51,722 nucleotides of DNA from Candidatus Igneacidithiobacillus taupoensis (GTDB taxonomy: Bacteria > Pseudomonadota > Gammaproteobacteria > Acidithiobacillales > Acidithiobacillaceae). Where the stretch lies: NCBI GenBank assembly GCA_021375695.1, contig JAEPKX010000009.1, forward strand, positions 1 through 51,722. The letters are read 5' to 3'. Each line of letters starts with the position of its first letter. Within the stretch, counting starts at the first letter, position 1. Under the pieces are notes generated by a model. The model was not told where the DNA came from. It saw only the letters and a program-made list of their open reading frames with translations, and did not search any database. Position numbers and translations under genes: made by a program. This document shows, piece after piece, positions 35,631 to 49,666 of the stretch.

Positions 35631-36815
35631 TTACCTGGGGATACGCCAGCGGGAGCGTGCCGGGATCTTGGCCAGGTTGCAGCGATGACGATACTTGCCA
35701 GCAATCTCCGATACCTCGGCCAACAGTCCGTTGCTCAGGGTGATGGGTTCCAGGCCTAAGTTTTGTAATCCCTGATTCTCCACCCGTAGTTCATTTTCCT
35801 GAGCTTCCTTGCGGGGATTGTCCAAAAATTCGATCTCGGCACCAGTGAGCTCTTGGATTAATAGAGCTAGATCACGAACTCGATGGGTTTCCGTGGTTTG
35901 GTTGAAAACCCGGACCCGATCACCCTGGGCAGGCGGGTGTTCGATGGCAAGCTCGATACACTTTACCGTATCACGGATATGGATAAAGGCTCTGGTCTGT
36001 CCGCCGGTACCATGGACGGTGAGGGGATGGCCCACCGCTGCTTGCATGATGAATCGATTGAGTACCGTGCCAAAATCTCCGTCGTAATCAAAGCGATTGA
36101 TAAGCCGTTCATCCTGTTGGGTGGCCGCGGTTTCGGTTCCCCAAACGATCCCCTGATGCAGATCCGTGATCCGTAAGCCATCATTCTTGTTGTAATAATA
36201 GAAAAACAATTGATCCTGGGTCTTGGTCATGTGGTAGATGGAGCCCGGATCCGATGGGTAGAGGATCTCGGTTTCTTCACTCTCTTCGTTGTCGGGTGAG
36301 AGTAACCGGACCCGCTGGTAGCCCTCAGGCAAGCTAAATCGTGAGGTTTTGTAGCCATATACACCCATCGTCCCGAGATGTACCAAATGACAGGTCTCCT
36401 CAAGACCATTTTCGACGATGGCACACAAAACGTTATGGGTGGCATTGAGATTATTGTCCACGGTATAGCGCTTGTGCCAGGGAGATTTCATGGAATAGGG
36501 CGCTGACCGTTGCTCGGCAAAATGGACGATGGCATCGGGTTGCAGGCGGTGCAGGAGTTTCTTGAGTTCCCCATAATCCTTGGCAATATCCAGGATGGAG
36601 ACGCCAATCTCCTCGCCAGTCAATTCCTTCCAGGCGCTGATCCGTTCCACCAACGATGAGATGGGAGTGAGGGATTGGACCCCCAATTCCTCGTCCTGAC
36701 GGCGGCGCACCAGATTGTCAACGATGTGCACTTGGTGACCGCGAGAAGAGAGATGCAGGCTGGTGGGCCAGCCACAAAATCCATCTCCACCTAGGACCAA
36801 AATTTTTTGAGGCAC
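35631..36815 (-). CDS. sqdB: UDP-sulfoquinovose synthase SqdB (sulfolipid pathway)
   Basis: 394 residues, extended short-chain dehydrogenase. The NAD loop is GGDGFCGWPTSLHL and the SQD1/SqdB blocks follow: SLTPISS, VHFAEQRSAPYSM, HLGTMGVYG (catalytic Thr), YHMTK (Tyr-Lys pair), DLHQGIVWG, FGTVLNRF, QAAVGHPLTVHG, GGQTRAFIHIRDTV. SqdB makes UDP-sulfoquinovose from UDP-glucose and sulfite, the precursor of sulfolipid SQDG. The start is GTG 36815 (VPQKILVLGG), with AAGGAG at 36823-36828 seven bases before it; the longer frame is unsupported. It is divergent from an MFS gene, and the Pho-box-like repeats lie between them. Confidence 0.93.
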   Translation of the reverse strand: MPQKILVLGGDGFCGWPTSLHLSSRGHQVHIVDNLVRRRQDEELGVQSLTPISSLVERISAWKELTGEEIGVSILDIAKDYGELKKLLHRLQPDAIVHFAEQRSAPYSMKSPWHKRYTVDNNLNATHNVLCAIVENGLEETCHLVHLGTMGVYGYKTSRFSLPEGYQRVRLLSPDNEESEETEILYPSDPGSIYHMTKTQDQLFFYYYNKNDGLRITDLHQGIVWGTETAATQQDERLINRFDYDGDFGTVLNRFIMQAAVGHPLTVHGTGGQTRAFIHIRDTVKCIELAIEHPPAQGDRVRVFNQTTETHRVRDLALLIQELTGAEIEFLDNPRKEAQENELRVENQGLQNLGLEPITLSNGLLAEVSEIAGKYRHRCNLAKIPARSRWRIPR

Positions 36816-36822
36816 TATTTTT

Positions 36823-36828
36823 CTCCTT
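36823..36828 (-). promoter_or_regulatory. Shine-Dalgarno that sets the sqdB GTG start
   Basis: Minus-strand AAGGAG, seven bases before GTG 36815. It supports the GTG over upstream in-frame start codons and gives the typical SqdB N-terminus. Confidence 0.7.
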
Positions 36829-36897
36829 TGCATGCGCTGAGGAAAAGAGTAGGCGAGTAGGACCCTTGTCGCAATTGCTGGGGCAAGCTGGCATCCC

Positions 36898-36931
36898 AGT
36901 GTCATATTAGTGTCATATTGGCATGCTATGC
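36898..36931 (+). promoter_or_regulatory. Pho-box-like promoter: perfect 11-bp tandem repeat
   Basis: AGTGTCATATT occurs twice, back to back, at 36898-36908 and 36909-36919; each contains TGTCATA as in the PhoB half-site, at the 11-bp period of a Pho box. A possible -10 (TATGCT, 36926-36931) follows at the right distance for activation toward the MFS gene at 36965. The repeat also lies upstream of the divergent sqdB. Confidence 0.75.
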
Positions 36932-36964
36932 TTTACAAGTTTGTTCTAGCCGGGAGCTTGCAGC

Positions 36965-38347
36965 ATGACCCAGATCCAGATTTTGGATGATCAGAGCGTT
37001 ACCCGCCGTCATCGACGGATTTTGTGGGCCTCTGGCCTTGGAATTTTTTTGGATGGGTATGACCTGAGCATTATGGCGGTGGCCCTCATCGTGCTCAAGG
37101 AGCAATGGCATTTGACGCCCAGCGAGTTGGGGGGGTTGGGCACCGCCGCCCTGGTCGGGGCCCTGGTAGGCGGACTCTTCGGCGGTCCCATTGCCGACCG
37201 CTGGGGGCGCAAGAGCATTTACCTGATCGATATCGCCACATTCTTTTTTGCAGCTGTGTTCTCTGGTTTGGCCTGGGATGCTACCTCACTCATTGTTTTT
37301 CGTTTTCTTTTGGGTCTGGGGGTTGGTGCCGATTACCCACTGAGTTCTACGTACATGGCTGAGTTCTTGCCCAAAAAATCCCGCGGTTCGGCCATGACCT
37401 GGATATTTGGTCTATGGATGGGGGGAGCCCTGGTTTCAAGCCTGGTAGGCCTGGCCCTCTTGCACACCGGCCCCGATGCCTGGCGATGGATGCTGATCTC
37501 CGGAGCCATTCCGGCAGTCCTGGTACTATGGCTGCGACGCAATCTACCCGAATCTCCCCGTTGGTTTCTGCGGCGTGGGCGCTGGGAGGAGGCGGATCAG
37601 GTAGTGCAATGGTTGGCGCCCCAACTCAACTTTCAGGAACGGCAAGCGGCCATGCAGGAGCTAGCCAAAAGCATGGAGGGAGCCCGGCGGCATACCTGGT
37701 TTGATCTCTTTGGCAGGAAATACCTCAAAAGAACCCTCTATGCAGCCATCCCCTGGTTTTTGATGGATGTCATGGGTTACGCCATGGCCATCTTTTTGCC
37801 CATTATGTTGTTACATCTGGGGTTACGGACCAGCGAGCAGGCACTGATTGGCAATACCTTGTTCACGGCGAGCTTTGTGTTGGGTTGGGTTCCCCTGGCG
37901 CTGCTCATCGATCGTATTGGTCGCCGCCAGGCGCAATTCTGGGGTTTTGTGGGGGATGCCCTGGGCTTGGGACTGGTTGGCGCCTTTGCGTTGAGTGGAG
38001 AGCCTCCTTTTGCCATTGCTGCCATCGGGCTGATTGTTTTTCAGGTTGCCAATAGTTTTGGTCCAGGGAACACTACCTGGATTATCCCTTCTGAGCTCTA
38101 CCCCACCGAATTGCGAGCCAGTGGTCATGGTTTTAGTACCGCCTTCAGCCGGGTTGGTGCTGCGATCAGTGTCTATTTGCTTCCCACGGTGCAGGCCAAG
38201 TTTGGTATTGGTGGTCTGCTGCTAATTCTCGCCTCGGCCGGGCTGCTGGGTGCTATCCTTACCAAGATTCTGGGAGTGGAAATGGCCGGCGAGGGGCTGC
38301 CGGAAGGTGGCGCAAAACCAGAGGTTTTGCAAAGAGAAGCGGCATGA
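36965..38347 (+). CDS. MFS transporter (sugar-porter/metabolite:H+ symporter-like)
   Basis: 460 residues, 12 membrane segments. MFS motif A appears as GPIADRWGRKSIYL; LPESPRWFLRRGR after TM6 and PSELYPTELRASGHG late are sugar-porter/phosphate-symporter hallmarks; the TM1 segment is FLDGYDLS. ATG 36965 lies behind GGGAGC. It sits behind the Pho-box-like repeat and beside sqdB, so it may import a phosphorus compound or a sugar phosphate; the substrate is not known. Its stop TGA abuts the stop of the convergent glycosyltransferase with no base between (TGA/TCA). Confidence 0.85.
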   Translation: MTQIQILDDQSVTRRHRRILWASGLGIFLDGYDLSIMAVALIVLKEQWHLTPSELGGLGTAALVGALVGGLFGGPIADRWGRKSIYLIDIATFFFAAVFSGLAWDATSLIVFRFLLGLGVGADYPLSSTYMAEFLPKKSRGSAMTWIFGLWMGGALVSSLVGLALLHTGPDAWRWMLISGAIPAVLVLWLRRNLPESPRWFLRRGRWEEADQVVQWLAPQLNFQERQAAMQELAKSMEGARRHTWFDLFGRKYLKRTLYAAIPWFLMDVMGYAMAIFLPIMLLHLGLRTSEQALIGNTLFTASFVLGWVPLALLIDRIGRRQAQFWGFVGDALGLGLVGAFALSGEPPFAIAAIGLIVFQVANSFGPGNTTWIIPSELYPTELRASGHGFSTAFSRVGAAISVYLLPTVQAKFGIGGLLLILASAGLLGAILTKILGVEMAGEGLPEGGAKPEVLQREAA

Positions 38348-39364
38348 TCAGTTTGCTTTTGCTGGAGTTAGATGGGATAAAAATCCATCGGTGCAATGAG
38401 ACCAATCGTGGGCCAGGGCAGCAGCCCGGCAGTCTTCCCGACGGAGTGCCAGGGCAGCCATTGCGGCTGCGGCAAGGTCCTCGCTAAGGATACCATTGTA
38501 TCCCGATTGAATGCTGGCCGCGGGGCCCAAAACCGGGTAAGCAGCCACCGGTACTCCGCAGGCGTTGGCCTCCCGAACCACCAATCCCAGGGTATCGGTT
38601 CGGCTTGGAAAAATCATGACGTCGGCGGCAGCAAGATGGCGACTCAAGGTTTCACCCTGCATCATGCCATGCCAGTGGACTTCCGGATAGTTGGCGCGTA
38701 GTTTGGGAGCCAAGGGTCCATCCCCAATGACATGCTTGCTGCCGGGAAGATTCAGCTGCAGAAATGCCTCTACATTTTTTTCCACTGCAACCCTACCAAA
38801 GTAGACAAAGGCGGGGCGCGGACCTGGCAGTAGAGAACGCAGATCATGATTTTCCCAGGGATGAAAGAGTTCCGCATCCACCCCTCTGCTCCACAGGACC
38901 AAATTTTTCATACCCCGTTGCGAAAGTTCAGTGGCCAGTGCCTGACTGGAAACCATGGTGGCAGCAGCAGCGCCATGAAACCAGCGCAAAAAGGCATATC
39001 CCCAGTCCACAGGCACGGGGAAGCGGGCTGCCACATACTCCGGAAACCGGGTATGGAAAGAGGTGGTAAAGGCGAGACCCTGGCCTACGCACCAGATCCG
39101 CGCTGCCAGTCCCAAGGGGCCTTCGGTAGCAATGTGAATCGCTTCGGGAACAAAACCCGTTAGTGCCTCCCGTACCTGACGAAAAGGTTCCAAAGCCAGG
39201 GGAATTTCCGGGTAGGTAGGGCAGGGCATGCTGGGTACATCGGCTGCATGGATCACCAGCACATCATGACCTTTACGGCGCAGATGCAGTACGGTTTGCT
39301 CCAGGGCACGCACCACCCCATTGATTTGTGGGGACCACGCATCGGTAATCAAGGCGATCTTCAT
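38348..39364 (-). CDS. Glycosyltransferase family 4, Agt/SqdX-like (glycolipid synthesis)
   Basis: 338 residues, GT-B fold. It opens IALITDAWSPQINGVVRALEQTV and has PCPTYPEI, EAIHIATEGPLGLAARIWC, SFHTRFPEYVAARFPVPVDW, LWSRGVD, FVYFGRVAVEKN and the C-terminal EX7E-type segment FPSRTDTLGLVVREANACG. This is the pattern of Agt, the transferase that makes monoglycosyl-diacylglycerols in PlcP-Agt phospholipid remodelling, and it also resembles SqdX. ATG 39364 overlaps the plcP-like stop (ATGA), so it is translated with it. It is one MFS gene away from sqdB; whether it transfers glucose, glucuronate or sulfoquinovose is not decidable. Confidence 0.82.
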   Translation of the reverse strand: MKIALITDAWSPQINGVVRALEQTVLHLRRKGHDVLVIHAADVPSMPCPTYPEIPLALEPFRQVREALTGFVPEAIHIATEGPLGLAARIWCVGQGLAFTTSFHTRFPEYVAARFPVPVDWGYAFLRWFHGAAAATMVSSQALATELSQRGMKNLVLWSRGVDAELFHPWENHDLRSLLPGPRPAFVYFGRVAVEKNVEAFLQLNLPGSKHVIGDGPLAPKLRANYPEVHWHGMMQGETLSRHLAAADVMIFPSRTDTLGLVVREANACGVPVAAYPVLGPAASIQSGYNGILSEDLAAAAMAALALRREDCRAAALAHDWSHCTDGFLSHLTPAKAN

Positions 39365-40200
39365 GAAGTCTCCATTGGAGGGGATGATGGGGAGGAAGGA
39401 GTGGCTTCAGGCCAGTGCAACAAGCGCAAGGTGCCATCAAAATCTTCGATCAAAGCCGTGCAGCTTTCGACCCAGTCGCCGTCGTTATAATAGGTAATAC
39501 CTTGGATTTCCTTGATTTCTGCGTGATGAATGTGACCACAGACCACCCCATCATAGCCAGAACGGTGGCACTCCATGGCCAAAAAATGTTCATACTGACT
39601 GATGAACTGGACGGCGCGTTTGATGCGGTGTTTGATGAAGGCGCTCAAGGACCAACGACTGCGGATCCCGAATCTCCGGTTGAAGTTTTGATGCCAGCGA
39701 TTGAGGTTCAGGAGCAGGGAATAGCCGCGGTCACCCAGATGGGTTAACCAGCGGGCATAATGCATGCTGAGATCGAATTGATCACCATGGGTTATCCACA
39801 GGCGCCGCCCGGTAGCAGTGGTATGCACCCATTGGGGGACGATCTGAATCTCCCCCAGGGCAAATTCCCGCTCTTCGGTCTCGAGAAAATTGCGAAAGAA
39901 GCCGAGCAGGGGGTCATGATTTCCTTGTACATAGACGACCCGGACACCGTTGCGGGCTTGCCTGAGGATCTTCTGGACTACGGTGCTGTGACTGCTGGGC
40001 CAATACCAGCGCCGTTTCAAAGACCAAAAATCAATGATATCGCCAATCAGATACAGATGCTGGCATTGGTAATGACGGAAAAAGTCCAGGAGTAGCTCTG
40101 CCTGGCAGCCTTTGCTGCCCAAATGGATATCGGAAACAAAAATGCTACGACAAAGAACCGGAGAGAGAATTTTCGCTGAGTCTCTTGGATCAGGGGTCAT
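39361..40200 (-). CDS. PlcP-like metallophosphoesterase (phospholipase C for lipid remodelling)
   Basis: 279 residues, calcineurin-like fold with metal motifs FVSDIHLG, YLIGDIIDFW, YVQGNHD, ITHGDQFD and CGHIHHAEI. Features that mark PlcP rather than LpxH are GCQAELLLDFFRHY, WYWPSSHSTVVQKILRQAR, and YYNDGDWVESCTALIEDFDG. PlcP of alphaproteobacteria and marine bacteria cuts phospholipids to diacylglycerol at low phosphate, for Agt to glycosylate. Automatic annotation would call this UDP-2,3-diacylglucosamine diphosphatase. It overlaps the Agt-like gene by four bases. No signal peptide; it would act on the inner membrane from the cytosol. Confidence 0.85.
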   Translation of the reverse strand: MTPDPRDSAKILSPVLCRSIFVSDIHLGSKGCQAELLLDFFRHYQCQHLYLIGDIIDFWSLKRRWYWPSSHSTVVQKILRQARNGVRVVYVQGNHDPLLGFFRNFLETEEREFALGEIQIVPQWVHTTATGRRLWITHGDQFDLSMHYARWLTHLGDRGYSLLLNLNRWHQNFNRRFGIRSRWSLSAFIKHRIKRAVQFISQYEHFLAMECHRSGYDGVVCGHIHHAEIKEIQGITYYNDGDWVESCTALIEDFDGTLRLLHWPEATPSSPSSPPMETS

Positions 40201-40295
40201 GGATGGACGGTAAATGGCCGCTGGTAAGCCTAGAGTATATGCCTTCCAAGGTCTCCTTGTCTTGTTGAGAGAAGCTTCCTGAGTGTAACAAAAAT

Positions 40296-40338
40296 GTCAT
40301 AAAAGATTCATCACACTGTCACAATCAGACTGTATAGT
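40296..40338 (+). promoter_or_regulatory. Pho-box-like array (three 11-bp units) with -10
   Basis: Three 11-bp units starting GTCAT (40296), TTCAT (40307) and GTCAC (40318) sit in phase, then TATAGT at 40333-40338 as a -10. The units nearly repeat those at 41212-41240 in front of exbB. Transcription is toward the regulator at 40398; the divergent plcP-like gene at 40200 could also respond. Confidence 0.72.
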
Positions 40339-40397
40339 TACTTCTAAAATGAGTGTGAATGTAGATATGACATGTACCGCAAACCCTCGAGGTGCCG

Positions 40398-41207
40398 ATG
40401 ATTGATACTTCATTGCTGGCTTCCTTTTTCCCGGTTTCCCATCTGATTGAAATGATGGGTGTGGTGGGCACGACGCGATGGGATGAGGCCGATCTTTTTT
40501 CCCATTCTCGTATTCTGCTGGCGGGTCAGGAGAGCTCCGCCAGAACTCTGGAAATGACTCTACGTCGACAGCATGCCCAAGTGCGATGGGTCCTGGAGCC
40601 TGCAAAACTGGCCAAATTGCTTGGTCACTGGTGCCCACAATTGCTGATTTTGCTGGAGTGGGGTGATCTTTGGTGCGAGGCGCTGGGCGAAAGCCAGGCA
40701 ATGCTGCAGCATGTCGGTACGACGGTGATGGCTCTTGGTCCTGATTGTGAAGAAGATGCAATGGCGGCTCTCCAGGCTGGGGTGAGTGCGTATGTGGGCT
40801 CCTTCCAGGGAGAAAGCCTGGTTCTTGCCCAAGCGAGCGCCCTGTTACGGCGTGGACATCAGTGGGAACTTGGGATCATCGACATACCTGGAGTACTGCG
40901 CATTGATCCCCAGAGTCATCGGGTCTTTGTGTTGGGGCAGGAACTCCAACTGAGCCGGAGAATCTTTCGCCTGTTTCATTACCTGGCACAGCGATCGGAA
41001 TATACGGTCTCTACCCTCGAAATTACCCAACAGCTTGTTGGCAACAAAGGCGTTGTGCACAGCAATACCATAGCCGCACAGATTCATCGTTTGCGCAAAG
41101 CGCTGGAAGAGGTTGGTGCGGATCGTTGGTTGCAAACCGTTCATGGAATTGGTTACCGCTTAACCTTGCCGACCGCTTCGGAGAGCAAGTCCAAAAAAGC
41201 GTCATAA
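40398..41207 (+). CDS. Orphan OmpR/PhoB-type regulator with degenerate receiver
   Basis: 269 residues. The N-terminal ~160 residues look like a response-regulator receiver (SRILLAGQESSARTLEMTLRR..., LLILLEWGD..., MALGPD), but the acidic pocket is gone (GQE for the Asp pair), the phospho-acceptor position reads Glu87 (LLEW; PhoB has LLDW), and no KPF lysine is seen. The C-terminal winged helix is intact: LQLSRRIFRLFHYLAQR, HSNTIAAQIHRLRKALEEVG and TVHGIGYRL. It may therefore act in a fixed active state. No kinase gene is adjacent. ATG 40398 is used (GAGGT just upstream); GTG 40392 is an alternative. A Pho-box-like array precedes it and another overlaps its last codons. Confidence 0.85.
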   Translation: MIDTSLLASFFPVSHLIEMMGVVGTTRWDEADLFSHSRILLAGQESSARTLEMTLRRQHAQVRWVLEPAKLAKLLGHWCPQLLILLEWGDLWCEALGESQAMLQHVGTTVMALGPDCEEDAMAALQAGVSAYVGSFQGESLVLAQASALLRRGHQWELGIIDIPGVLRIDPQSHRVFVLGQELQLSRRIFRLFHYLAQRSEYTVSTLEITQQLVGNKGVVHSNTIAAQIHRLRKALEEVGADRWLQTVHGIGYRLTLPTASESKSKKAS

Positions 41208-41244
41208 AACTGTCATAAAAAGTTCATCAAACTGTCATATAGAT
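41201..41244 (+). promoter_or_regulatory. Pho-box-like array (four 11-bp units) before exbB
   Basis: Units begin GTCAT (41201), GTCAT (41212), TTCAT (41223) and GTCAT (41234), exactly 11 bases apart. Units two to four repeat the three-unit array at 40296 almost base for base. The first unit overlaps the end of the regulator gene. A possible extended -10, TGTACAAT, is at 41261-41268. Confidence 0.75.
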
Positions 41245-41285
41245 TTGTTACATTCTCTATTGTACAATATAGGAGTAAAAATCCC

Positions 41286-41975
41286 GTGAACATTGACTAC
41301 ATTGTCCATCTTGCCAACTATTCCGATGGTATTATTTACATCCTTGCCCTGTTGCTGCTTGTCGAGCTGGCGGTGATGATTGATCGGTTCTGGTATCTAC
41401 GCCGCACCCTGGCGCGTGGCGATGCAGTGGTCCATGAGCTGGCGGTGCAGGGGCGGTTGGACTACAAAGGCTTGACGCAATTGGCCGAGCATTCTGCGGG
41501 CCTTCCCGAAGAAAGCCTCTTTCGGATGGCTGCCAACCACGTTGGCCAGGTCAAGGGCGAGGCCATGGCCAATCGTCTGGAAGAGGCGGTCATTACCCTG
41601 GCGCCCCAGCTGGATCGGCGCCTGTGGTTGCTGGATACCATCATCACCCTGGCTCCTCTGCTGGGGCTGCTCGGTACCATCATTGGCATGTTCCATGCGT
41701 TCCATGTCCTTGCCACACCGGGGCACGCGCCCACCGATGTCACCGGAGGGGTGGCCGATGCCTTGGTAGCAACGGCTTCGGGTCTGTTTATCGCCATATT
41801 GGGTCTGCTGACCTTCAACGCCTTCAACAACCAGGTGCGGATGATCCTGCTCCAGTTGGATTCTATCAAGACCATGTTGATCAACCGCCTGGATGGGCAA
41901 CCCATCAACCACCCCGGTGCGGACCCCAGTGATGAGCGTTCGGCGCAGGTCCTGTCGGTAGCGAGGGCCGGCTGA
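41286..41975 (+). CDS. exbB: ExbB-like proton channel subunit (MotA/TolQ/ExbB family)
   Basis: 229 residues, three membrane segments: one near the start (YILALLLLVELAVMI), and a pair around 110-180 with LDTIITLAPLLGLLGTIIGMFHAF and GVADALVATASGLFIAILGLL. The pattern LLGTIIGM is the ExbB/TolQ hallmark. It forms, with ExbD, the pmf-driven motor for TonB. The start is GTG 41286, with AGGAG at 41271-41275. The stop overlaps exbD (TGATG). Confidence 0.92.
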   Translation: MNIDYIVHLANYSDGIIYILALLLLVELAVMIDRFWYLRRTLARGDAVVHELAVQGRLDYKGLTQLAEHSAGLPEESLFRMAANHVGQVKGEAMANRLEEAVITLAPQLDRRLWLLDTIITLAPLLGLLGTIIGMFHAFHVLATPGHAPTDVTGGVADALVATASGLFIAILGLLTFNAFNNQVRMILLQLDSIKTMLINRLDGQPINHPGADPSDERSAQVLSVARAG

Positions 41976-42373
41976 TGGAGCGTCGGTATTTTGAATACAG
42001 GAAGGGGCGGGTAGAGATCATTCCGATGATCGATATCATGCTCTTTTTGCTGGTCTTCTTCATTATGATCACCCTGCAGATGATCCCGGACCAGGGACTG
42101 AATCTCCAGCTTCCTGCCTCCAGCCAGGCAAAAGAGTTACCTCGACCCCATCTCACCATCAATATTCAAAAAGACGGTACGGTGGTGGTGGACAAGCGGC
42201 ACTATGACCTCGCTGGTCTTGAAAATCTGATCCGCAGCGATGGCAATCCTAGCAAGACGGTGATCACCATTGCGGCGGACAAAGCCGTGCCCTATCAGAA
42301 ATTCATCAACGTGATGGATACCTGCCAGAAGGCGGGGGCCAGTGATATTGGTCTGGCGGCCAAGGCGGATTGA
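41975..42373 (+). CDS. exbD: ExbD-like biopolymer transport protein
   Basis: 132 residues. A single membrane segment near the N-terminus carries the channel Asp (VEIIPMIDIMLFLLVFFIMI); the C-terminal periplasmic domain follows (TINIQKDGTVVVD; IAADKAVPYQKFINVMDTCQKAG). ATG 41975 is coupled to the exbB stop. tonB follows after one base. Confidence 0.93.
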   Translation: MERRYFEYRKGRVEIIPMIDIMLFLLVFFIMITLQMIPDQGLNLQLPASSQAKELPRPHLTINIQKDGTVVVDKRHYDLAGLENLIRSDGNPSKTVITIAADKAVPYQKFINVMDTCQKAGASDIGLAAKAD

Positions 42374-42374
42374 G

Positions 42375-43112
42375 ATGGGCACGGTACTATCCTCTCCTCC
42401 CCTGGCACCACAGCCCAAGGATTTTTTTGGTCGGGCCCTGCTCCTTGGCGCCGTGCTGGAAGTGGGTTTGCTGGCCGGACTCCTCTGGATCAGTGCGCAG
42501 AAAAGTCCACCGCCTCCACCCAAGCCCAAACGCATTGCCATCCACATGGTAGAGCCGCCCAAGCCTAAGCCCATTCCCCCCAAGCCCAAGCCTAAGCCCA
42601 AGCCCGTGGTGCAGCCCAAGCCGGTTCCCAAACCCATCCCCCATCCCGTACCACGGCCCATTCCCCATCCCGTGCCGCACCCAGTGGTCCATCACCAGGT
42701 CACGCCCAAACCCCTGGTGGCCAAGGCCCCGCTGCCCACGGCCCCGGTTGCGCCACCAGCACCCCCGGTCACGCCGCCACCGCCACCACCCCCTCCGGCA
42801 CCCAGCCCAGCGCTGGCACAAGAGGCCATCGCTCAATACGCCGCCATGGTTCGGGAACAGGTACAATCCCAGGCCCGCGTACCCGAGGCGGTACGGCTCA
42901 TGCATCTGAGCGGCACCGCGGTCATTCGCTTTGAGTTGCTTCCCAGTGGACAATTGGTCTGGGCCCGGTTGGCAAATTCCAGCGGTGTGGGGGCCATCGA
43001 TCGGGCGGCCCTGGCGGCTGTGAAAGCGGGCAATTACCCACCCTTTACCAAGAATATGCCCAAAAAACCTACCCAATTCGATGTGGAGGTCCATCTTTCG
43101 GCCGATTCCTGA
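42375..43112 (+). CDS. tonB: TonB-family energy transducer with Pro-rich span
   Basis: 245 residues. One N-terminal membrane segment (LLLGAVLEVGLLAGLLWI) is followed by a long Pro/Lys spacer (KPKPIPPKPKPKPKP, then HPVPRP repeats and a run of Pro near residue 140) and a C-terminal TonB domain (VRLMHLSGTAVIRFELLPSGQLVWARLANSSGVGAIDRAALAAVK). It carries pmf energy from ExbBD to an outer-membrane receptor, which is not encoded in this window. ATG 42375 follows the exbD stop immediately; the longer frame lies inside exbD. Confidence 0.9.
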   Translation: MGTVLSSPPLAPQPKDFFGRALLLGAVLEVGLLAGLLWISAQKSPPPPPKPKRIAIHMVEPPKPKPIPPKPKPKPKPVVQPKPVPKPIPHPVPRPIPHPVPHPVVHHQVTPKPLVAKAPLPTAPVAPPAPPVTPPPPPPPPAPSPALAQEAIAQYAAMVREQVQSQARVPEAVRLMHLSGTAVIRFELLPSGQLVWARLANSSGVGAIDRAALAAVKAGNYPPFTKNMPKKPTQFDVEVHLSADS

Positions 43113-43151: not shown

Positions 43152-43943
43152 ATGAGAAGACTGTTGCAGGCCATCTTATCCATGATGATCCTGCTTTGTC
43201 TGGTGCAAGGGGCTTTTGCGAAGGACGGAGCAGGAATGCAGTTTCAACACTACACCTTCGCCATGCTGTGGCAACCAGGTGTGTGCGCCACATGGACCGA
43301 GACGGGACCTGCCTGTGCAGGTCTGACACCCCAGTCGAAGGCCAGCCAGCAATGGAGTCTGCATGGGCTCTGGCCCAGTCGCCCAGCGCAACTCGTTGCC
43401 AGGGGCATGGAAGCAAAAAGCTGGTGGCAACACGGCTGCTTCTGGTTCCAGAACCAAAGTTTTCCACCCCACGACAGTTGCTCCTTACCTCCCTTGGAAT
43501 TGTCTCCCAGGGTGCGTGAGGAATTGAGTGAGAACATGCCCATGCAGAAGGTCTGCCTGGACCGGCATGAATACTACAAGCATGAAGCCTGCTTCGGAGT
43601 AAAGCCTTCTCCCTACTTCCAAACGGCGCTGGAACTCCTGGGAGATGTGAATGCCAGTAGCTTCACCGCCTTCGTCCGTGACCATCGGGGCCAATGGGTT
43701 TCCCGCAATGCCCTGCTGAAGGCCTATAGCGATGCCTTTCATCTCGCCGATGCCTCCTCTTTGGAGCTGCGCTGCGAAACCGATCCGCGTAGCAGGCCAA
43801 GGCATAAAAATCAGGAAGGTACCATACTGACCGAGGCGTGGATTACCATCCGATCGGACCGCGTCCATGAGTTTCCCAAGCCCAGTGCCATTATGGCGGG
43901 AAGGAAGGGCAACTGTGCCAAAATGATCCATATCTTACCATAG
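43152..43943 (+). CDS. Secreted RNase T2 family ribonuclease
   Basis: 263 residues with a signal peptide (LLQAILSMMILLCLVQGAFA). The two active-site blocks of RNase T2 are visible: HGLWPS (His71) and CLDRHEYYKHEAC (His139/Glu140/His144), with several Cys for disulfides. It would degrade RNA outside the cytoplasm to 3'-nucleotides that phosphatases can use. ATG 43152 is preferred over TTG 43137 as it follows AAGGGAG and leads straight into the signal peptide. It lies behind the tonB gene and before the phosphoesterase, so a phosphate-scavenging role is likely. Confidence 0.9.
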   Translation: MRRLLQAILSMMILLCLVQGAFAKDGAGMQFQHYTFAMLWQPGVCATWTETGPACAGLTPQSKASQQWSLHGLWPSRPAQLVARGMEAKSWWQHGCFWFQNQSFPPHDSCSLPPLELSPRVREELSENMPMQKVCLDRHEYYKHEACFGVKPSPYFQTALELLGDVNASSFTAFVRDHRGQWVSRNALLKAYSDAFHLADASSLELRCETDPRSRPRHKNQEGTILTEAWITIRSDRVHEFPKPSAIMAGRKGNCAKMIHILP

Positions 43944-43957
43944 TCAACGAGGGAGCA

Positions 43958-45517
43958 ATGCTAAGAAGACAATTTTTACAGCGGATGGGAGCCGGGACCG
44001 CGACTGCGCTCGCCGCCCCGAGGATTTTGGCAGGCGCACGCTCAGGCATCGGCGCGCAGAATCAGGTACGCGCCAAGATCGACCATGTGGTGGTAATCTT
44101 TCAGGAGAATCGTTCCTTCAGCCACTATTTTGGGACTTTTCAGCCCCGTAATGGACAGGGGGTTTTCAATCTTCTCGATCACGAGGGCAAGATCGACCCC
44201 CACTATATTGGGCTGCAAAAGAATCCGGTCGGAATTCCCTATGCCAATCTGCCTTTGCCTTTGGAAATCAATGGCTTTAGCAAAGCCATTCTACCCAACC
44301 AGCCCTTTCCACTGGCGCCTTATATCCCGGCCAATGGTACCGTGCGTTGGGATCCCAAGCATCGCTTTTTCCGGATGATGGCTGAGATCAACCAGGGCAA
44401 GATGGACCGGTTTGTGGCCTTGGCAGGGAGTTCCCATCGGACGTTGAGTCGGGAGGAGTTCCAGAAACTGACCCCCGCGCAGATCGCGTTTGCTCTGGCC
44501 AAACCGAGCGGACCGGTGCTTGGTTACTACCAGGAGCAGGATTTACCTTTTTATCACCGTCTGGCCCACCAATATGTACTCTTTGATCATTTTTTCCAGG
44601 CCATGAGTGGGGGAAGTACGGGCAATGCCATGTATCTGGCGGCCTGTCGCTCCGCTGTGCATCCTGGGGTTGCAGAGAAATTTACAGCACCTTTCGATCC
44701 CAGGGCCCAGGGCCTGGATCTGACCTTTTTCGATCTGCCCTATGATCATCAGCGGGTTATGGTCAATGACCTCCCACCCATTCAGGGGCCGACCGATGCT
44801 GGGCGAGAGAAAGAGTTGCGCATCAGCCCACCCCCCGAAGCACAACAATACGATAACATTGGCGATCGACTGAGGCGTGCCAATGTGGACTGGGCCTGGT
44901 ACAACGAAAACTGGAATCGCGTCAAGCCATGGGCACTCAAGACCGCTTTTGGTCCTGGCGATGGCTCAGCGGTCATTGATACCCATCAGCTGTATGTGCC
45001 TCACCACAATCCCTTTCAGTATTACCCCCGTTGGCCAGCCTATGTGCAGGATGGACACCTGCGGGATGCCGAGGATTTTCTGGAAGATGCGCGGCAGGGA
45101 AAATTACCGGGGGTTTCTTTTCTGAAGGCCAGCGCCGCTCACGATGAGCATCCAGCCGATTCTGCTCCAGCCGTGGGCATGGCTTGGGTAGAGCGGCTGG
45201 TACGGGCAGTAGCGGAAGGGCCGGCCTGGGAGAAGACTGCTATTTTCATCACCTATGACGAAGGAGGAGGTTTCTGGGATCCATTGCCTCCGAAGATGGT
45301 CGATAACTATGGGTATGGTACCCGCGTCCCAGCCCTTTTGGTGAGCCCCTGGGCCCGGAGCGGATGGGTGGATCATCACCAGGCCAGTAGCGCGAGCATT
45401 CTCAAATTCATCGAGAACCGCTTTGGCTTGGCCCCGTTAACGGCTCGCGATCGGGATGCCTATGACTTGCTCGATGCCTTCGATTGGGAGCAACGGCCCA
45501 AATCTTTGCAGGTTTAG
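43958..45517 (+). CDS. Secreted phosphoesterase, phospholipase C/acid phosphatase family (PF04185)
   Basis: 519 residues. The N-terminus MLRRQFLQRMGAGTATALAA looks like a Tat-type signal. The metal-binding core is IDHVVVIFQENRSFSHYFGTF, with SSHRTLS and FFQAMSGGSTGNAMYL, and later AIFITYDEGGGFWDPL and GYGTRVPALLVSPWA. This family contains phospholipase C and acid phosphatase AcpA-type enzymes. It is 14 bases behind the RNase T2 gene. A role in releasing phosphate from organic phosphates outside the inner membrane is inferred. Confidence 0.87.
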   Translation: MLRRQFLQRMGAGTATALAAPRILAGARSGIGAQNQVRAKIDHVVVIFQENRSFSHYFGTFQPRNGQGVFNLLDHEGKIDPHYIGLQKNPVGIPYANLPLPLEINGFSKAILPNQPFPLAPYIPANGTVRWDPKHRFFRMMAEINQGKMDRFVALAGSSHRTLSREEFQKLTPAQIAFALAKPSGPVLGYYQEQDLPFYHRLAHQYVLFDHFFQAMSGGSTGNAMYLAACRSAVHPGVAEKFTAPFDPRAQGLDLTFFDLPYDHQRVMVNDLPPIQGPTDAGREKELRISPPPEAQQYDNIGDRLRRANVDWAWYNENWNRVKPWALKTAFGPGDGSAVIDTHQLYVPHHNPFQYYPRWPAYVQDGHLRDAEDFLEDARQGKLPGVSFLKASAAHDEHPADSAPAVGMAWVERLVRAVAEGPAWEKTAIFITYDEGGGFWDPLPPKMVDNYGYGTRVPALLVSPWARSGWVDHHQASSASILKFIENRFGLAPLTARDRDAYDLLDAFDWEQRPKSLQV

Positions 45518-47431: not shown

Positions 47432-47917
47432 TCAGGTTATTTTTCTGGTCTTCTTAACCATCAACGGATCGGCTGGATTCGTCAGGCTGCTATCTGCTGA
47501 CTGCTGCAGCACCTCCAGAATAGGGCAGAGATGATTTTGAGGAATATCCTGATCGCAAGACGTAATCAATTCTGCAAGTACTTTCTCCATTCTCTGCAAA
47601 GCGGCAATCTTGTCACGAACCATCGCGAGTTTGTTTTGAGCACATTGTTGAACCGCTTTGCAGGCATCGGCACTATCAGCACGTAACGATAACAGATCCT
47701 GTATTTCCTGCAGAGTAAATCCCAAGCTTTGGGCGTGTTTGATGAAACGGATTCGCGCAACAATCTCCATGGGATACCGACGAAACGCCATAGCCGGCTT
47801 CTTCGGTTGCTGAATGAGCCCCTGGCGCTCATAGAATCGCACCGTTTCCACATGAACTCCTGCAGCTTTTGCTACTTGTCCGATGCGGAGTTCGGACTGT
47901 GTGGGCTCGTTGCTCAT
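47432..47917 (-). CDS. merR: Mercury-responsive MerR regulator
   Basis: 161 residues. The N-terminal winged helix is RIGQVAKAAGVHVETVRFYERQGLI, then the dimer helix. Cys86, Cys121 and Cys131 take the place of the Hg(II) ligands Cys82, Cys117 and Cys126 of Tn501 MerR: the first spacing is the same (35), the second is one residue longer. Cys92 is extra. It is encoded downstream of merA on the same strand (25-base gap), not divergently as in classical mer operons, so it is probably transcribed from the merA promoter. It should bind the operator at 49675. Confidence 0.92.
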   Translation of the reverse strand: MSNEPTQSELRIGQVAKAAGVHVETVRFYERQGLIQQPKKPAMAFRRYPMEIVARIRFIKHAQSLGFTLQEIQDLLSLRADSADACKAVQQCAQNKLAMVRDKIAALQRMEKVLAELITSCDQDIPQNHLCPILEVLQQSADSSLTNPADPLMVKKTRKIT

Positions 47918-47942
47918 TTGCTAGCTCCGGTAATAGAGATGG

Positions 47943-49583
47943 TTACCCAGCACAGCAAGACAGTTGCGAGACGTCTTTGGTGAAGGTCTGGGCACAGAGC
48001 TTGAGACCCTCCACCATGGTGAGATAGGGGAAGAGTTGATCAGCCAGATCCTGAATCGTTAGTCCACCCCGGAGGGCCAGTGCGGCTGCCTGGACAATCT
48101 CTCCCCCCTCCGCCGCCAAGATTTGTGCACCGACGAGTTTCCCACTGCCTTTTTCGGCTACCAGCTTGATAAAGCCCTGGGTGTTGAAATTGGCCAGGGC
48201 GCGGGGAACATTGTCCAAGCCCAAGGTTCGGCTTTCGACATCGAGCCCTTGTTTGCGGGCCTGCTGCTCATCGAGGCCCACCGTAGCCACCTGGGGATCG
48301 GTAAATACCACCGCAGGCATGACTGAAAGATCCAACCGGGCATTGCCACCCAAGAGATTGACCGCTGCCCGGGTGCCACCGGCTGCGGCCACATAGACAA
48401 ACTGCGGTAGGCTTGTACAGTCTCCGGCGGCATAGATATGGGGCACATTGCTTTGCATGCGTTCATTGACCGGGATTGCCCCGTTGGGTAGGGTCTCCAC
48501 CCCGATTTCCGCCAGACCCAAATCCTGGGTATTGGCGATCCGCCCCGTAGCCACCAACAAGCGATCGCCGTGAATGGTCCCAGACCCGCATTCCAGGGTG
48601 AAGACTCCCTCTTCATAGCGTACAGAACGGGGAACCGTGTGGGTGTGAATCTGGACTCCTTCGTTTTCCAGGGCGGTCTGCAGGCCATGGCCCAAGGCTG
48701 GATCCTCTTTGGAAAGTAGGGTGCTGCGGGCCAGAATGGTGACCTCGCTGCCCAAGCGGCGGAAGGCTTGGGCCAATTCCAGGGCAACTACGGAACCACC
48801 CAATACCAGGAGATGGCGAGGGAGTTCTTCGGCTACCAGTGCTTCGGTCGAGGTCCAATAGGGGGTTTCGGCAAGTCCTGCTATGGCGGGAACTTGCGGG
48901 CGGGCGCCCACGGCAATCAAAAAACGATCGGCCTGGATGGCCTGCCTCGTGCCATCGTTTTTTTCGACCAGGAGGGTATGGGTATCTGCAAAGCGGGCGT
49001 ATCCTGACACGAAGGAAATATCTGGATGACTGGTAAGAACGTGGGCATATTTTGCTTCCCGCAGTGCAAGCACGCGCTCTTGTTGTTGTTTCACCAAGGC
49101 TTTCCGATCAATGATCGGCTCGCAATGCCGCAGACCCAAAAAGGGATGGGCCCGCTGATCCTGGGCCATTTGGGCTTGTCGAATCAAAATCTTGGAGGGC
49201 ACACAACCCACATTGACACAAGTGCCACCCAAGGTTCCCCCTTCGATCATGGTCACTCGCGCCCCACCTTCCACGGCCCGAATGGCGCAAGCAAAGGCAG
49301 CGGAGCCAGACCCAATGATGGCCAGATGCAAGGGCACTGCCTGGATCGGAGTGGTAGACGGTTCGGTTGTTGGACTTACCCTGGCGCCATAGCCCGCTTT
49401 TTGCACCGCTTCCAACAGAAATTGGATGGGGAATTCGTTCTCGCTGATCACCCGCGCAGTCCCTTCCGGGAATGAAACGCTTGCCTCACGTACACCTTTA
49501 ACACCTCGTAAGGCCTTCTCCACCGTAACTGCACAATGCTTGCAGGTCATTCCGGTAATTTTCAGTTCTTGCTGGACAGCCAT
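47943..49583 (-). CDS. merA: Mercuric reductase with N-terminal HMA domain
   Basis: 546 residues, close to the Tn501 enzyme. The N-terminal NmerA/HMA domain has GMTCKHC; the FAD domain has GSGSAAFACAIRAVEGGARVTMIEG; the redox centre is GTCVNVGCVPSK; the C-terminal vicinal pair that receives Hg(II) is SCCAG. It reduces Hg(II) to Hg(0) with NADPH. ATG 49583 (MAVQQELKITG) is set by GGAGGGG just upstream, not the frame start 49640. It is preceded by a mer operator and followed by merR. There is no merT, merP or merC nearby, so Hg(II) import is not encoded here. Confidence 0.96.
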   Translation of the reverse strand: MAVQQELKITGMTCKHCAVTVEKALRGVKGVREASVSFPEGTARVISENEFPIQFLLEAVQKAGYGARVSPTTEPSTTPIQAVPLHLAIIGSGSAAFACAIRAVEGGARVTMIEGGTLGGTCVNVGCVPSKILIRQAQMAQDQRAHPFLGLRHCEPIIDRKALVKQQQERVLALREAKYAHVLTSHPDISFVSGYARFADTHTLLVEKNDGTRQAIQADRFLIAVGARPQVPAIAGLAETPYWTSTEALVAEELPRHLLVLGGSVVALELAQAFRRLGSEVTILARSTLLSKEDPALGHGLQTALENEGVQIHTHTVPRSVRYEEGVFTLECGSGTIHGDRLLVATGRIANTQDLGLAEIGVETLPNGAIPVNERMQSNVPHIYAAGDCTSLPQFVYVAAAGGTRAAVNLLGGNARLDLSVMPAVVFTDPQVATVGLDEQQARKQGLDVESRTLGLDNVPRALANFNTQGFIKLVAEKGSGKLVGAQILAAEGGEIVQAAALALRGGLTIQDLADQLFPYLTMVEGLKLCAQTFTKDVSQLSCCAG

Positions 49584-49666
49584 TTCCCCTCCGTAGGTTA
49601 CGGTACAATCATCCTCTTGGGATTGCCCCGTTTCAGTCAAACTGCTGTGTAATACCCATTATAGTT

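Follow-up and report, generated by a model that had tools for sequence, protein, structure and literature searches.

The closest described counterpart of the repeats analysed here is the Pho regulon of Escherichia coli, in which PhoB-PhoR controls genes such as phoA and pstS. PHO boxes are 11-nt direct repeats, with the core CTGTCAT in E. coli, and PHO boxes lacking phosphate regulation exist as well (PMC4415409). In acidithiobacilli, Osorio et al. (2008) described clusters of exbBD-tonB and phosphatase genes located 3′ of PhoB-like regulators of the OmpR family and proposed that they serve iron uptake coordinated by Fur and PhoB; the term Pho box is absent from the text of that paper (PMC2631029). 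Two further groups of described systems are relevant. Atypical OmpR/PhoB regulators with pseudo-receivers, including ChxR (PMC3960148), HP1043 (PMC8345958), and Campylobacter CosR (8uvk/8uvx), keep the receiver fold and the winged helix with loss of catalytic residues. PlcP-Agt gene pairs replace phospholipids by glycolipids under phosphate stress (PMC4796936).

The locus described here lies in the window (the whole 51,722-nucleotide stretch of DNA that was analysed) and comprises the following features.

40284..40327, + strand: PHO-box array 1, four 11-bp units TGTAACAAAAA TGTCATAAAAG ATTCATCACAC TGTCACAATCA; front unit at 40284-40294, 33-bp core of the last three units at 40295-40327
40333..40338, + strand: -10 hexamer TATAGT of the regulator promoter, starting 16 nt past the beginning of the final unit of array 1
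40398..41207, + strand: OmpR/PhoB-type regulator, degenerate receiver at about residues 38-153 and winged helix at about 160-256; ATG at 40398, alternative GTG at 40392
41200..41243, + strand: PHO-box array 2, four 11-bp units CGTCATAAAAC TGTCATAAAAA GTTCATCAAAC TGTCATATAGA; front unit at 41200-41210, 33-bp core of the last three units at 41211-41243
41249..41254, + strand: -10 hexamer TACATT of the exbB promoter, starting 16 nt past the beginning of the final unit of array 2
41286..41975, + strand: exbB (MotA/TolQ/ExbB family, PF01618), the first gene behind array 2
41975..42373, + strand: exbD (PF02472)
42375..43112, + strand: tonB (PF03544; TIGR01352 over cut-off)
43152..43943, + strand: RNase T2-family protein (PF00445), in an order conserved in the family
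43958..45517, + strand: phosphoesterase of the phospholipase C / acid phosphatase type (PF04185; TIGR03397/TIGR03396 below cut-off)

As in the E. coli Pho regulon, the repeats are TGTCA-type 11-bp direct repeats arranged head to tail with the last unit 16 nt before the -10 element, and the genome has PhoB, PhoR, and pst genes with a box. Unlike their E. coli counterparts, most arrays of this family comprise three or four units, the penultimate one being a TTCAT variant, and their predicted targets include a TonB-ExbBD operon and a second, PhoB-like regulator. The locus shares exbBD-tonB and phosphoesterase genes 3′ of a PhoB-like regulator with the clusters of Osorio et al.; the present analysis maps PHO boxes with -10 elements and sets the regulator apart from PhoB. 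In contrast to ChxR, HP1043, and CosR, the regulator gene of the window itself stands behind PHO boxes and adjoins exbB. The gene cluster is already known (as an iron uptake cluster), and its boxes are ordinary PHO boxes; this analysis adds where the boxes lie, a promoter geometry that is conserved, and a pseudo-receiver regulator linked to Pho. We found no prior report of PHO boxes at the exbBD-tonB/regulator loci of this family in the open-access papers searched.

Both arrays consist of 11-bp units placed head to tail, four per array, where at least two 11-nt direct repeats with a TGTCA-type core are expected of a PHO box. The first-pass annotation had reported two matching three-unit arrays with few changed bases, and both were found where it placed them, their 33-bp cores being identical at 26 of 33 positions. 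It had also described an extra front unit as peculiar to array 2. The overlap of that unit with the 3′ end of the regulator gene holds, as it contains the final Ser codon and the stop (TCA TAA, 41202-41207), but the exclusivity does not, since array 1 has a fourth unit of its own. With up to three mismatches allowed, the pattern common to both arrays occurs at no third place in the whole window, and it was absent from all 100 dinucleotide-preserving shuffles. Scored by the 11-bp unit, both arrays reached 19.0-19.5, compared with a top score of 17.0 among 40 simulated windows. The two-array observation is real and well beyond chance.

Because the -10 hexamers sit after the last units, both promoters read along the plus strand, and array 1 is predicted to read into the regulator gene and array 2 into exbB. 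To evaluate the spacing, 74 distinct arrays were gathered in this genome and its relatives, blind to the -10 element, and offsets 8 to 29 were compared. The motif TANNNT was present at offset 16 in 63 of the 74 arrays, and at every other offset in no more than eight; the -10 elements of E. coli phoA (TATAGT) and pstS (TATTTT) lie at the identical offset. The arrays thus have the fixed placement ahead of a -10 hexamer, in place of a -35 element, that marks PHO boxes, even though the exbB hexamer TACATT matches just four of six consensus positions. On the minus strand at array 1, we detected neither a unit nor a -10 of the PHO type, and only a weak sigma-70-like match at 40263-40234. Additional service of array 1 to the divergent phosphoesterase gene was rejected on this ground.

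Having located the two arrays, we searched the genome, a 1.73-Mb draft in 62 contigs, by pattern-based scans. The two-unit pattern followed by a -10 element occurs at 15 sites, compared with none for the reversed-pattern control in the same 1.73 Mb. Sites of this kind stand ahead of canonical phosphate genes, namely pstS (contig C14) and pstB-phoU-ppx (C29, directly 3′ of phoR); others precede genes for MFS and ABC transport, for OprD-like porins, and for three TonB-dependent receptors. The genome also encodes a PhoB/PhoR pair, both on C29 and adjoining, with PhoB scoring 309.6 bits (cut-off 296.2) and PhoR 366.8 bits (cut-off 334.2). Four TonB-dependent receptors with a Plug domain were detected, three of which carry a box. 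For the fourth, on C62, no box was found within the 146 bases available, and a box at all TonB receptors was therefore rejected. At the ends of C14 (20574-20628) and C25 (66607-66661), a TonB-receptor promoter and its Pho box are identical, and these sites are probably a single place split by the assembly.

In C26, a Pho array at 41184-41210 (L025) lies about 65 bases ahead of a gene for an OlsB-like acyltransferase, which is followed by a PlsC-like gene. This arrangement suggests phosphate control of ornithine lipids, the ornithine-lipid type of the acyltransferase being assigned by reading its sequence, with no profile model behind it.

The same promoter signature recurs across the family. 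A stricter pattern of three units plus a -10 element was found in 26 of 29 family genomes, and its reversed control had no match in the 29. In 585 kb of retrieved loci, a non-random sample enriched for Pho genes, we counted 110 arrays versus seven in the reversed sequence, and 83 versus none when a -10 element was included. The gene order regulator-exbB-exbD-(an extra gene in some)-tonB-RNase T2-phosphoesterase is widely conserved, and each exbBD-tonB ortholog examined has a box ahead of exbB; at two more distant exbB loci (L131, L132), the box is about 900 bp upstream or weak. That the repeats are a coincidence of chance or assembly with no regulatory role is a negligible prospect: the identical C14 and C25 contig-end sites, maybe one place seen twice, speak for it, but the zero control matches and the conservation family-wide and across genera speak against it.

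Because the pattern recurs genome- and family-wide with no match in the reversed controls, and because the genome encodes PhoB and PhoR, we regard it as very probable that both arrays are PHO boxes, with PhoB as the expected binder. The first-pass annotation had proposed that either PhoB or the regulator binds both boxes. Its PhoB half is borne out by the units, their spacing, the distance to the -10 element, the pst sites, and the PhoB/PhoR pair, while its regulator half lost ground, as the exbB box outlives the adjacent regulator (see below). Its further proposal that the second box controls exbBD-tonB is supported by the box at every ortholog examined.

Profile matches over cut-off for ExbB, ExbD, and TonB (PF01618, PF02472, and PF03544) fall in a single cluster behind array 2, and the RNase T2 gene probably belongs to the exbB transcription unit, as judged from the arrangement of the genes. 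The window TonB was rejected as the sole TonB of the genome, as TonB_C also matches on C44, on C60, and once, within a Tol-type cluster, on C3. The 2008 proposal for acidithiobacilli would assign the boxes to iron control and have Fur govern the cluster as a ferric uptake system linked to phosphate. It derives from the placement of such TonB clusters, 3′ of PhoB-like regulators and some with predicted Fur sites, under iron uptake (PMC2631029). However, the top Fur-consensus match in 40150-41300 is 11/19, a value reached in 93% of simulations, and a Fur box in this interval was rejected. In addition, unit, spacing, and -10 distance all match PHO boxes, and the surrounding genes encode RNase T2, a phosphoesterase, and proteins of the lipid-remodelling type. 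We therefore consider iron control of the boxes most unlikely.

The regulator at 40398 is not PhoB: against the PhoB equivalog model it scores 76.9 bits, far below the cut-off of 296.2. Pfam recovered the DNA-binding domain alone, which the first annotation had noted as PhoB-type. The receiver model PF00072 was not reported for the window protein and matched one of 13 orthologs at E 0.09. A fold predicted from the single sequence (pLDDT 40) was discarded. The alignment-based structure model, built from 13 sequences (the window protein and 12 orthologs; mean pLDDT 77), predicts alternating strands and helices at 38-153, as in a receiver fold, with a winged helix C-terminal to them. It matched full-length regulators at E 1e-13 and the BfmR receiver with a TMt of 0.83; the best full-length matches include DNA-bound CosR, and PhoB effector domains matched at about 2 Å.

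Aligned with the genome's own PhoB, the regulator has all five catalytic positions of the receiver replaced (E-D, D, T, K by G-Q, E, G, S), and the phospho-acceptor position is variable among orthologs (D, E, N, G, S, P). A pseudo-receiver is defined by the loss of at least one of the five catalytic residues (PMC12632262), a definition that the predicted receiver fits. As all five positions are lost, phosphorylation is less likely than protein abundance to set the output of the regulator. The recognition helix reads AAQIHRLR (invariant among orthologs as AAQ[IV]HRLR) versus VDVHIRRLR in PhoB, and the wing VHG versus VRG. The Trp of the PhoB transactivation loop is absent from the regulator. 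The protein is thus PhoB-like, its receiver degenerate and its recognition helix altered, and the altered helix suggests a DNA preference different from that of PhoB.

The regulator genes are themselves tied to Pho arrays. An array stands directly ahead of the gene in the genus of the window, which by shared contigs is that of Candidatus Igneacidithiobacillus taiwanensis and Acidithiobacillus sp. YTS05. The same holds for the caldus-like and ferrooxidans-like genomes and for another genus besides. In a thiooxidans-like clade (L073-L077, L080, L081), no box directly precedes the regulator, but an upstream MFS gene has a Pho array about 1.6 kb upstream of the regulator. In this clade, the regulator would be co-transcribed with the MFS gene, and the Pho linkage appears to be retained though the box has moved. 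Altogether, each of the 24 examined regulator copies has a Pho array upstream, either directly or via a Pho-fronted MFS gene; this count includes L066, whose array is under the automatic threshold and visible on inspection. Since all 24 copies are so placed, the regulator is probably a PhoB target.

Is the regulator, then, the main binder of both boxes, which would autoregulate and activate exbBD-tonB? Its PhoB-type winged helix speaks for this, the solved structures that it matches best by sequence being effector domains of E. coli PhoB, one of them bound to pho box DNA, and so does its position next to exbB in most family genomes. However, the recognition helix and wing differ from PhoB at ortholog-invariant positions, the transactivation-loop Trp is absent, and boxes of the same kind stand at pstS and further genes unlinked to the regulator. 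In seven genomes (L116-L122), moreover, the adjacent regulator is missing or truncated, often as a stop-bearing remnant, while the exbB box and its -10 element are intact. Similarly, a diverged array with a -10 element is still discernible upstream of exbB in two genomes of the same genus with no adjacent regulator (L125, L126). Because the exbB box is kept where the adjacent regulator is lost, array 2 appears independent of the regulator in cis, and this survival is the strongest evidence for such independence. Genomes with no adjacent copy retain divergent regulator paralogs elsewhere, at about 34-39% identity, and one of these may bind the box in trans. The thiooxidans-like clade, with no box immediately ahead of the regulator, is evidence against simple autoregulation. 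We therefore consider it very unlikely that the regulator is the main binder, and the binding and autoregulation first proposed for it found no positive support.

Among the genomes with remnants, L118, L119, L120, and L121 carry truncated regulator genes upstream of exbB, most of them interrupted by in-frame stops, and the exbB boxes next to them are intact; in this clade the neighbouring regulator has decayed.

A second layer of control, compatible with the PhoB reading, is a tentative possibility. Here PhoB would activate both promoters, and the regulator would act on some PHO arrays as a co-activator or as a damping, non-activating competitor. The position of all examined copies behind a Pho array would create a feed-forward or feedback loop, and the modelled PhoB-like fold could read 11-bp repeats; the altered recognition helix argues against it, as does the exbB box, which is unchanged in genomes that lost the adjacent regulator. 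We likewise offer as a speculative proposal that the regulator is a family-specific, phosphorylation-blind relative of PhoB that is induced by PhoB and feeds back on the Pho network or supplies the TonB operon with another input. Such feedback could operate, for instance, by occupation of PHO arrays with no activation, the transactivation-loop Trp being absent. If true, this would constitute a two-layer phosphate circuit in Acidithiobacillaceae.

Under the preferred PhoB reading, phosphate limitation would lead PhoR to phosphorylate PhoB, dimers of which would occupy the 11-bp units head to tail. Bound there, they would substitute for the -35 element of the two sigma-70 promoters and bring RNA polymerase to the -10 hexamers that begin at 40333 and 41249. 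Array 1 would then drive the regulator gene, making the regulator a product of the Pho response and not its sensor, and array 2 would drive exbB-exbD-tonB, probably together with the RNase T2 and phosphoesterase genes, the operon extent being read from gene order. The induced TonB complex would energise the box-carrying TonB-dependent receptors encoded elsewhere in the genome, and secreted enzymes would free phosphate from RNA and organophosphates. TonB import machinery is thus probably switched on at low phosphate in this acid-loving bacterium. This recasts a TonB cluster of bioleaching bacteria, so far filed under iron uptake, as a likely part of the phosphate response. If confirmed, it would make three of the four TonB-dependent receptors of the genome candidate importers of phosphorus compounds. 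The promoter signature predicts the Pho regulon family-wide, and it flags a PhoB-like pseudo-receiver regulator of which all examined genes are under Pho arrays.

Another array lies upstream in the window.

36900..36921, + strand: third Pho array, TGTCATATTAG TGTCATATTGG, with a weak front unit at 36889 and the -10 hexamer TATGCT at 36927-36932; precedes an MFS gene (36965-38347)

With its -10 element (36900-36932), it occupies the gap between the MFS gene and a divergent UDP-sulfoquinovose-synthase-like gene (35634-36905), which scored 340 bits with NF041015, under the cut-off of 575. On the minus strand at 38348-40200, a calcineurin-type phosphoesterase gene overlaps a GT4 glycosyltransferase gene. 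As in lipid remodelling loci (PMC4796936), this PlcP-Agt-like pair lies beside a Pho box, but here array 1 points away from the pair, and no Pho array for it was found on the minus strand. Further downstream, also on the minus strand (47432-49640), open reading frame translations indicate a MerR-type regulator gene adjoining a gene for a MerA-like reductase with an N-terminal metal-binding domain.
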